From Oscillospiraceae bacterium (GTDB lineage: Bacteria; Bacillota; Clostridia; Oscillospirales; JAAYXM01), in contig SVMJ01000004.1 of NCBI GenBank assembly GCA_015067485.1, forward strand, positions 62,001 through 126,000: 64,000 nt of DNA, written 5' to 3'. Position numbers and translations under genes: made by a program. The notes below the pieces were generated by a model. The model did not search any database, was not told where the DNA came from, and saw only the letters and a list, made by a program, of their open reading frames with translations. Shown one piece after another: positions 18,889 to 38,221 of this stretch (positions are counted from its first letter, which is position 1; each line of letters starts with the position of its first letter).

Positions 18889-18965
18889 GCGCTCGTAGCT
18901 CAGCTGGATAGAGTACTTGACTACGAATCAAGGGGTCACAGGTTCGAATCCTGTCGGGCGTGCCA
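18889..18965 (+). tRNA. tRNA-Arg (anticodon ACG)
   Basis: Cloverleaf with acceptor GCGCTCG/CGGGCGT (G-U pairs allowed), D-arm, anticodon loop CTACGAA with anticodon ACG (read as ICG), T-arm GGTTCGAATCC and encoded CCA. Confidence 0.95.
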
Positions 18966-18966
18966 C

Positions 18967-19007
18967 AAAAAGACCACATTTGTCCGTCGGACAAATGTGG
19001 TCTTTTT
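18967..19007 (+). terminator. Terminator of tRNA-Arg
   Basis: A 19-bp perfect stem (AAAAAGACCACATTTGTCC with its complement) and a 3-nt loop, starting right after the CCA and ending in five T. Confidence 0.9.
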
Positions 19008-19009
19008 GC

Positions 19010-19150
19010 ATGATGTTTGCCTGTCGTCAAATGATGACGCTAACGCTAATGATGTTTTCTTCGGAAATGATGTCGCTTCGCGAATGTTGCGGGCAAACAT
19101 CACATCATTGCGAGAAAAGCGAGCAACATCATGAAGCGAAGCATCACACC
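19010..19150. repeat. Array of small hairpins spaced by ATGATGT
   Basis: Short palindromes, TTTC-TTCG-GAAA (19056-19067), CGC-TTC-GCG (19074-19082) and TTGC-GG-GCAA (19087-19096), are separated by ATGATGT (19010-19016, 19049-19055, 19067-19073). The right half uses the complement ACATCAT (e.g. 19126-19132), so the whole array is itself roughly inverted around 19090-19100. It lies between the tRNA-Arg terminator and the promoter of the four-helix-bundle gene. It is not coding. Confidence 0.65.
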
Positions 19151-19160
19151 ATGTACATCG

Positions 19161-19189
19161 TTGAAAAATTTTACTGTTTATGGTATAGT
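19161..19189 (+). promoter_or_regulatory. Promoter of the four-helix-bundle gene
   Basis: TTGAAA (19161-19166) and TATAGT (19184-19189), 17-bp spacer, 24 bp before the start codon. Confidence 0.65.
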
Positions 19190-19212
19190 AAATCGAAAAG
19201 GGGGCATTTTTT

Positions 19213-19565
19213 ATGAAAGATAATAAACTTGCCACACTTTCTATGGATTTTTCGGTTGAGATTATCAATCTTGTAAAGCACTTAAAATCAAACCACGAAT
19301 CAATCGTTTCCAATCAAATCGGCAGAAGCGGGACTTCCATTGGCGCCAATATCCACGAAGCGCAATATGCGCAGAGCAAAAAGATTTTATCTCTAAACTG
19401 GAAATTGCGCTAAAAGAAGCAAGCGAAGCAAGTTATTGGCTGAAACTTATGTACGAAACCAAAAGAATCAATATCGAGACCTATCAAAACACCGAAAGCC
19501 TGTGCGGAAATATTCGTAGACTTCTAATCGCATCTTGCAAGACGGCAAAACAAACAAAGGAGTGA
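19213..19565 (+). pseudogene. Four-helix-bundle (S23/Avd-like) protein, frameshifted
   Basis: The first frame gives KDNKLATLSMDFSVEIINL, NQIGRSGTSIGANIHEAQYA, then breaks off at a stop at 19411. Reading one base back from the A5-G run (19378-19383) restores the family sequence DFISKLEIALKEASEASYWL to a TGA at 19563, about 117 residues in all. This matches the small four-helix-bundle family found in 23S rRNA intervening sequences and related to the Avd protein of diversity-generating retroelements. A missing A in the homopolymer is the simplest cause; -1 slippage or an assembly error are alternatives. The last codons (AAGGAG TGA) form the ribosome site of the next gene. Confidence 0.8.
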
Positions 19566-19569
19566 TATT

Positions 19570-19941
19570 ATGTTTACATTTGCACACAACAACTTCAATG
19601 TCCGTGATCTTGACAAATCCCTTGCTTTCTACAAAGAAGCACTCGGGCTTCATGAAGTCCGCCGCAAAACCGCAGAAGACGGAAGTTTTATCCTTGTGTT
19701 TCTCGGCGATGCCGCAGGAAGTCAGCATCAGCTCGAACTCACCTGGCTGCGCGACTGGGACCGCCCGTATAACCTGGGTGACAACGAGATCCACCTTGCG
19801 TTCAAGGCAGACGATATGGATGCCGCCCACGCACTCCACGAGAAGATGGGCTGCATCTGCTTCGAGAACAAGGCGATGGGCATTTACTTCATCTCAGACC
19901 CCGACGGATACTGGCTCGAGATCGTCCCTGCGAAAAGATAA
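19570..19941 (+). CDS. gloA: Glyoxalase I-type VOC family protein
   Basis: 123 residues, one VOC domain made of two beta-alpha-beta-beta-beta modules: HNNFNVRDLDKSLAFYKEAL at the N-terminus and EIHLAFKADDMDAAHALH in the second half. Likely metal ligands are His6, the Glu of LELTW, the His of EIHLAF and the Glu of YWLEIVP, as in lactoylglutathione lyases. It would detoxify methylglyoxal with a thiol cofactor; which thiol is unknown in this lineage. It is read from the four-helix-bundle promoter unless a promoter is hidden in that gene. AAGGAG overlaps the upstream stop. Confidence 0.85.
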   Translation: MFTFAHNNFNVRDLDKSLAFYKEALGLHEVRRKTAEDGSFILVFLGDAAGSQHQLELTWLRDWDRPYNLGDNEIHLAFKADDMDAAHALHEKMGCICFENKAMGIYFISDPDGYWLEIVPAKR

Positions 19942-20251
19942 AAAAGGTCGAACCTTCGGCGGCTTCACATAGGGATCATTCGTCTTATGACGGGATTTCG
20001 CGTCCATAGCATCACAAAAACCACTTGGGATCCGCCAGGATTCCCGCGTAATTTTTGCTCGCTCTGAATCACGAAATCCTCGGCATAAGATGCGTTGCAG
20101 TTTTGAGACAGACATTTTTCGTGAAGACAAAGAAGAAAAGCACCGAAAATCCTGACGGATTTCGGTGCTTTTTGATGCAGTATTCGCGGAAAAGGGCGTA
20201 TCAAAACCGATTTCTCCCTATATGAAGACGCCGTTCAGGTTCGACCTTTTT
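19941..20251. mobile_element. 311-bp element with terminal inverted repeats (MITE-like)
   Basis: This fills the convergent gap between gloA and gdhA. The ends are perfect 15-bp inverted repeats, AAAAAGGTCGAACCT (19941-19955) and its complement (20237-20251). Just inside, 19957-19975 and 20215-20233 pair 17 of 19 bases. In the middle is a strong hairpin (20136-20173: AAAAGCACCGAAA / TTCGGTGCTTTT) that can end transcription from both sides. Flanking TA is present on both ends, with one extra base on the right. Short open frames inside carry no ribosome site and no known domain. A pair of merged terminators is the alternative. Confidence 0.55.
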
Positions 20252-38142: not shown

Positions 38143-38221
38143 GTTGCGAAGCAACATATCGCATCGAAGATATATCGCGTGCGCAGGCACATATCGAAAA
38201 TTCCGAAGGAATTTATATCGC
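38143..38221. repeat. Array of four small hairpins spaced by ATATCGC
   Basis: GTTGC-GAA-GCAAC (38143-38155), ATC-GAA-GAT (38163-38171), GTGC-GCAG-GCAC (38179-38190) and AAATTCC-GAA-GGAATTT (38198-38214) are each perfect stems. Each is followed by ATATCGC or ATATCGA (38156-38162, 38172-38178, 38191-38197, 38215-38221). Three of the four loops are GAA. It lies between the stop of the zinc-ribbon gene and its terminator, so it would be the 3' untranslated part of that mRNA. Confidence 0.75.

Follow-up and report, generated by a model that had tools for sequence, protein, structure and literature searches.

The window, a 64,000-nucleotide stretch of an Oscillospiraceae bacterium genome (contig SVMJ01000004.1, positions 62,001 to 126,000), carries between positions 18889 and 19941 an ordered succession of a tRNA-Arg gene, a palindromic terminator, a hairpin array, a promoter-like stretch, a gene for a four-helix-bundle (4HB) protein of the S23/IVP family and a VOC gene. 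The tRNA-Arg gene (anticodon ACG; 18889..18965, forward strand; ARAGORN) includes its CCA, and the unit discussed here is bounded on the left by its 3' end. The intrinsic terminator, a perfect 21-bp palindrome recovered by repeat search (18966..19008, unstranded), is the first hairpin of this unit and, judged by eye, is not alignable with the terminator behind the same tRNA in G008, a genome of the same genus. The array as a whole (19010-19161) consists of forward ATGATG words followed by reverse-complement words. Its left half (19010..19102, unstranded) holds words at 19010, 19031, 19049 and 19067 with hairpins in between, its closing element being a perfect inverted repeat of 11 nt (19011-19021 with 19092-19102). 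The right half (19102..19161, unstranded) holds two exact reverse words (CATCAT at 19103 and 19127) and two degenerate ones (at about 19146 and 19155), again with hairpins in between. At least five array words occurred in only 8 of 6385 overlapping 150-nt segments of the 64 kb, all of them on this array, and folding of the array alone was only moderately better than that of shuffled sequences (z of -1.9 as RNA and -2.2 as DNA). An earlier sequence-only reading had described an ATGATG array between a tRNA-Arg terminator and a 4HB gene, and this observation was confirmed.

The stretch ahead of the 4HB gene (19158..19201, forward strand) is presumably a promoter; by BLAST it is 80% identical over 45 nt to sequence immediately ahead of the VOC gene of G008. 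In that genome it runs straight into the VOC gene, and in the window the 4HB gene is interposed. The 4HB gene (19213..19565, forward strand), delimited from open reading frames, PF05635 and alignment with intact relatives, had been called broken, and it does match PF05635 in two overlapping frames: one is open from 19213 to 19413 and the other continues to a TGA at 19563-19565. Relative to intact copies the single frame change falls at an A-run (19378-19382), as either a true frameshift or an assembly error. The predicted protein starts with MKDN. Directly behind it lies the VOC/glyoxalase gene (19570..19941, forward strand; PF00903, E 1.8e-11), which may be a passenger or a resident; its homologue in G008 is 3.5 kb from the tRNA. 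Just past the VOC gene, at 19941-20250, is a dispersed repeat, some 300 bp long, that has terminal inverted repeats. Copies of it occur elsewhere in the genome at up to 99% identity and in large numbers in G008 and G002; it is MITE-like and independent of the array. Rfam matched only two tRNAs in the window and no other known RNA family.

Pattern searches of the whole genome recovered nine arrays, five of the ATGATG type and four of an ATATCG type (49 and 26 pattern matches, against 4 and 2 for reversed-pattern controls). One of the latter lies in the window itself (about 38156..38220, unstranded), directly behind a terminator; as had been suggested, it has the same design with another linker, and it has no 4HB gene. 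Three of the nine arrays are accompanied by such a gene: that of the window, one on contig C17 with an intact gene beside a tRNA-Leu, and one at C5:106697. An array standing without its gene had been named beforehand as evidence against a joint unit; such arrays do occur elsewhere, six of the nine in this genome being of this sort, and are read here as gene-less copies or remnants. Four of the five ATGATG arrays adjoin a tRNA gene or a copy of a tRNA 3' end (by eye for the one on C1). The fourth 4HB gene of the genome (C15, L002) is preceded by a different kind of repeat, a long imperfect inverted repeat with ATTCATTATTCA or ACTTATTACTTATTC words, which was also seen with the 4HB genes of L073, L076, L171, L173, L177, L183 and L192. 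Several of these lie behind tRNA terminators, and in some cases one half of the terminator's stem is copied within the repeat.

Known since the 1990s, the S23/IVP family is said to be of unknown function in the portions of the literature available to us. All 14 relatives tested scored above the PF05635 cut-off. A structure model of the L114 protein (pLDDT 94.3; the broken protein of the window lies outside the model) closely resembles solved S23 proteins (2rld, TM 0.91; 2gsc, 0.83) and, more weakly, the Avd protein of diversity-generating retroelements (4dwl, TM 0.77; 8ub7, 0.74). This likeness in fold is what would favor a retroelement, in which an Avd-like 4HB protein assists a reverse transcriptase in copying the RNA of the array to tRNA ends; the sequence-only reading had pointed to the occurrence of the family in diversity-generating retroelements. 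Unlike Avd, however, the protein shows no association with reverse transcriptases here. Matches to the 4HB family were found in 138 of 295 genomes of this order, and reverse transcriptases are not commoner in these (35/138) than in genomes without them (46/157). Nor was a reverse transcriptase (PF00078) found in the genome of the window, which is 83% complete, so that absence is not proof, or in G152, G163, G253 and G143. A retroelement is thus highly improbable.

Arrays upstream of 4HB genes were scored as the number of word-hairpin-word units within 450 nt, with a threshold of at least 3. Three sets of loci were used: the 80 best relatives in genome contigs (set A, 75 usable after 5 with less than 250 nt upstream were dropped), the 30 top Pfam scores (set B, 29 usable, 1 dropped for the same reason) and 40 picks spread over the order-wide 4HB list (set C). 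The threshold was reached at 38/75, 3/29 and 19/40 loci, respectively, as compared with 9/750 random segments of the same loci and 6/99 positions upstream of other genes. Because the set A query came mostly from array-bearing relatives, that set is biased toward arrays, and set C together with a held-out set gives better estimates of their frequency; of 27 held-out loci (40, less 11 without motif and 2 too short), 12 scored at least 3 and 19 at least 2. Arrays are therefore far commoner near 4HB genes than chance would allow (19/40 in set C versus 9/750), as the earlier reading had proposed should be checked. They lie at most about 300 nt from the start codon and almost always run from forward to reverse words.

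The highest-scoring Pfam members (set B) are mostly without hairpin arrays. When it was enough for a 7-mer to recur four or more times on either strand within 300 nt, positives rose to 65/75, 15/29 and 25/40 in sets A, B and C, against 16/770 in controls, indicating that a tendency to have short repeats ahead of the gene extends more widely through the S23 family. This agrees with Coxiella, where the accessible part of PMC4990558 describes two to four tandem heptamers just ahead of the S23 start codon. In viral contigs 4HB relatives were few (10 loci), and spread of the unit by viruses was set aside on this account. Two phage records from human faeces (MT835590, L343, and MT835815, L344) contain 4HB genes, both with hairpin arrays, that of L344 directly behind a tRNA-like end.

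The segments between words are structured. Among 368 segments (313 distinct) the best stem averaged 4.47 bp, as compared with 2.92 bp after shuffling. In 17 aligned ATGATG arrays a 25-pair structure was paired at 86.8%, against 80.0 in column shuffles and at most 53.8 when the structure was slid along the alignment. Eleven pairs change on both sides, versus 4.4 in shuffled alignments, a value that none of 500 shuffles reached.

The identity of the word varies between loci, its families including ATGATG, GTGATG, GTGAAG, ATGAAG, A/GTGAAAT, ATGAATTG, GCTAAAT and GTGATAT. In 71 of 81 cases the nearest protein relative (at most 95% identical) carried the same word, as opposed to a mean of 10.1 and a maximum of 23 when words were shuffled. 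A host family may contain up to five words, and a word may occur in up to four host families, so the word tracks the protein and not the host.

This correspondence could be narrowed to a single position. Where residue 4 of the 4HB protein is N or D the first base of the word is A, and where it is S the base is G, in 95 of 95 loci. The set comprised the array-positive loci, ten array loci missed by the score and the two phage loci, each with at least three word copies; of 96 rows, L165 was removed for its truncated gene, and L137 and L167 were given new start codons. Before these changes, 51 of 52 A-words went with N or D and 44 of 44 G-words went without. The rule holds separately within the TGATG, TGAAG, TGAAAT and TGATAT cores, and also when each core is left out in turn. 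The next-best positions are residue 7 (88/95, with R or K accompanying G) and residue 2 (74/95). No third codon position, and none of the 12 spacer positions ahead of the start, does better than 63/95, where the majority class alone gives 52/95; linkage at the DNA level as the source of the match is ruled out by these near-chance values. In held-out loci the rule was right in 19 of 22 cases and contradicted in none, L368, L389 and L396 being uncallable. On the best tree, which was built without the first eight residues and is poorly resolved, residue 4 and the word base each change 14 times, giving 14 independent pairs irrespective of branch support; only 3 pairs lie on well-supported branches, and all 3 agree with the rule. 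Residues 4 and 7 fall on one face of helix 1 (residues 2-26) in the structure model. In the window, residue 4 is N, which fits the ATGATG word of its array.

Since residue 4 predicts the first base of the word, the 4HB protein very probably reads the word of its own array. The match would imply physical binding, with the array presented as folded RNA or as single-stranded DNA. It could be argued that these are simply neutral tandem repeats drifting beside the S23 family, given that many S23 genes are preceded by short tandem repeats, those described in the accessible part of PMC4990558 for Coxiella included. However, the hairpins between words, the inverted words, the compensatory changes and the residue-base match are all unexpected under drift, and an explanation of this kind is scarcely credible.

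The arrays often follow tRNA genes. A tRNA gene ends within 110 nt ahead of the first word in 49 of 90 array-bearing loci, covering 15 isotypes, as compared with a tRNA in the preceding 450 nt at 11 of 1138 random positions. Of 45 cases in which the distance was measured, 26 have the palindrome starting 0 or 1 nt past the tRNA. A hairpin whose tip is TTTGTCTACC-like was found behind 13 of 48 array-linked tRNAs (eight isotypes) and behind 2 of 43 others, suggesting that it travels with the unit.

One clean pair of filled and empty sites was recovered. In L240 (G163) a palindrome, an array, a 4HB gene and a HAD gene stand, in this order, between a tRNA-Lys and a small gene. The same tRNA-Lys in G205 and G152 has a different terminator, behind which that small gene comes immediately. 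The sequences cease to be homologous at the tRNA CCA and become so again about 1.5 kb further on, just past the HAD gene, indicating that terminator, array, 4HB gene and HAD gene arrived together. No target duplication was found at the ends. Elsewhere in relatives there are HAD homologues of 44-52% identity, and these have no array. These two relatives without the unit place its left end at the tRNA CCA, and together with the association described above they support the earlier suggestion that array and gene form a transferable unit that landed beside a tRNA. At the window locus the comparison gave a mixed outcome: G008 lacks both array and 4HB gene at tRNA-Arg, with homology ending at the tRNA 3' end, but it is rearranged downstream, which makes this a weaker case of an empty site. 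L253 offers no clean empty site, the tRNA of its relatives being in the opposite orientation. A single tRNA-Tyr site in four species of one genus is occupied variously, by a GTGAAATA array with a 4HB gene in G005, an ATGAAG array in G006, a short ATGATG array in G007 and no array in G003. Copies of a tRNA 3' end were observed just ahead of the unit at L001:1150-1260, L103 (G004 contig 47) and L338; they may be what is left of other islands, by which these tRNA genes were used at a later time.

The origin of the palindrome was also considered. At L174 and L178 its left arm, by eye, is the coding 3' end of a gene that we take to be rlmD, with no T-run and about 165-200 nt before the 4HB gene. 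A coding end at the palindrome of L152 (by eye) and the tRNA-linked palindromes that include the CCA are likewise suggestive of fold-back, so that the palindrome may be formed by fold-back copying of the target's own 3' end. Such copying is not claimed here, because palindromic terminators starting 0-2 nt past the tRNA are common also at tRNAs without a scored array (27/43, some of which do precede arrays, versus 44/48 with an array).

Genes downstream of the 4HB gene are varied. An open reading frame preceded by a Shine-Dalgarno sequence starts at most 60 nt from the 4HB stop in 25 of the 75 array-bearing loci of sets A and C and in 11 of 38 array-less ones, and the passenger was accordingly rejected as a fixed part of the unit. 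In 7 of those 25 loci the two genes overlap by ATGA, and in 6 of these 7 the Shine-Dalgarno sequence, AAGGAG, is contained in the last 4HB codons. Among 26 downstream proteins, the VOC protein of the window included, Pfam identified up to six acetyltransferases, two glyoxalases, two nucleotidyltransferases and single NUDIX, HAD, methyltransferase and GDSL proteins. L240 is the only case of a downstream gene that arrived with the unit. In G006 contig 126 (L100:300-3000) two long ATGATG arrays flank the gene of an ATPase resembling AbiLi (PADLOC, E 1.4e-47) and its partner, which matches AbiLii weakly, so defence genes may be among what the arrays carry.

Altogether, the window locus probably represents a small mobile unit, present here as a decayed copy at a tRNA 3' end, whose 4HB protein recognises its own array. 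The unit would comprise the palindromic terminator, the hairpin array with its inverted word pattern, the promoter and the 4HB gene, often with a passenger gene. Recognition would take place through the start of helix 1, by residue 4 aided by residue 7, and would serve the spread of the unit. Our best guess is that a 4HB pentamer holds the folded array and that host enzymes do the remainder, cutting and joining being performed by host or other trans-acting enzymes. Action in trans is suggested by the lack of a known catalytic function in the family and by the failure to find a reverse transcriptase or Y1 transposase in this genome. Only two tyrosine recombinases were found in it, both on contig C3 and neither near the array of the window. 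Against this reading as a whole stand the lack of a catalytic domain in the protein and of any mobilising enzyme found, the single clean pair of filled and empty sites with no target duplication, the many arrays without the gene, the scarcity of hairpin arrays in set B, the frequency of palindromic terminators at tRNA ends that have no array, and the poor resolution of the tree.

The layout is comparable to that of REP/REPIN sequences and their RAYT genes, in which, according to the part of PMC3733652 available, the hairpins bear a conserved foot word that is unpaired, are arranged in inverted fashion, occur also as orphan copies and have a cognate gene. Hairpins with a conserved foot word in inverted arrangement are present here too, and a Y1 (HUH) transposase might move the hairpin units in trans with the 4HB gene as a fellow traveller. 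This is improbable, however, as Y1_Tnp had no match in 5 of 10 genomes searched, including that of the window, and as the word tracks the 4HB protein. The cognate protein is a four-helix bundle and not a Y1 transposase, and the target is the 3' end of a tRNA.

The main rival for the purpose of recognition is autoregulation, in which the array is a structured leader and binding of the protein controls expression of its own or the next gene, with no role in movement. The array does lie upstream of the gene at a fixed spacing, and the residue-base match requires binding only, so that recognition would suit autoregulation equally well. Against this, six of the nine arrays in the genome have no 4HB gene, the location at tRNA ends and the filled and empty sites point to movement, and a promoter-like stretch (by eye) separates array and gene, so that the mRNA does not have to include the array. 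Autoregulation is therefore considered rather unlikely. Far less likely is a toxin-antitoxin system resembling type III, in which hairpin repeats would neutralise a toxic 4HB protein: repeats do adjoin a small gene, but the order is terminator, array and gene, many arrays stand alone, and S23 proteins are not known to have nuclease activity. A growth assay is included in the part of PMC4990558 available.

The same protein family is encoded in intervening sequences of 23S rRNA in Leptospira and Coxiella, where the small insert is thought to be selfish (PMC4990558, as available in part). Unlike these, the present unit lies outside rRNA genes, at tRNA 3' ends, is equipped with a long hairpin array and with a terminator and promoter of its own, and is often accompanied by a passenger gene; insertion within a 23S rRNA gene was not encountered at the window locus, where tRNA-Arg and protein genes surround the unit. 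S23 genes also occur in rRNA inserts of CPR bacteria, as mentioned in the accessible text of PMC11270868. Integron gene cassettes, like the present unit, are small, have structured sites and carry one of a variety of passenger genes (here GNAT, VOC, NUDIX and nucleotidyltransferase); the unit differs in having no adjoining integrase and in inserting at many tRNA genes. Tentatively, and as a possibility that falls a little short of likely, we propose a new class of mobile cassette, in which a catalytically silent 4HB protein would read the array words by a residue-to-base code and mark the unit and a captured passenger for insertion at tRNA 3' ends through host enzymes, the S23 genes of rRNA intervening sequences being its best-known branch. 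No prior description of the arrays or of the residue rule was found in a literature search that was thin on subscription journals and preprints.

The residue-to-base rule, uncontradicted in held-out loci, gives the widespread S23 family a testable function, namely sequence recognition of a hairpin array. Movement of S23 units likewise becomes testable, as insertion at tRNA 3' ends by a unit for which no recombinase or reverse transcriptase of its own was found. The appearance of S23 genes in two CRISPR surveys may be explained too: 18 23S_rRNA_IVP genes are reported in cas loci, one of them between cmr3 and cmr2 (PMC3936711), and '23S rRNA IVP' appears in a figure legend of the other (PMC10910872), with no mention of hairpin arrays or a word-protein match in the parts of either available. 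By eye, no cas genes were recognised among the open reading frames around the window array. 4HB genes flanked on both sides by plain short repeats of other sequence were observed in Monoglobus (L345) and Treponema (L346), that of Monoglobus lying between hsdS and hsdR.
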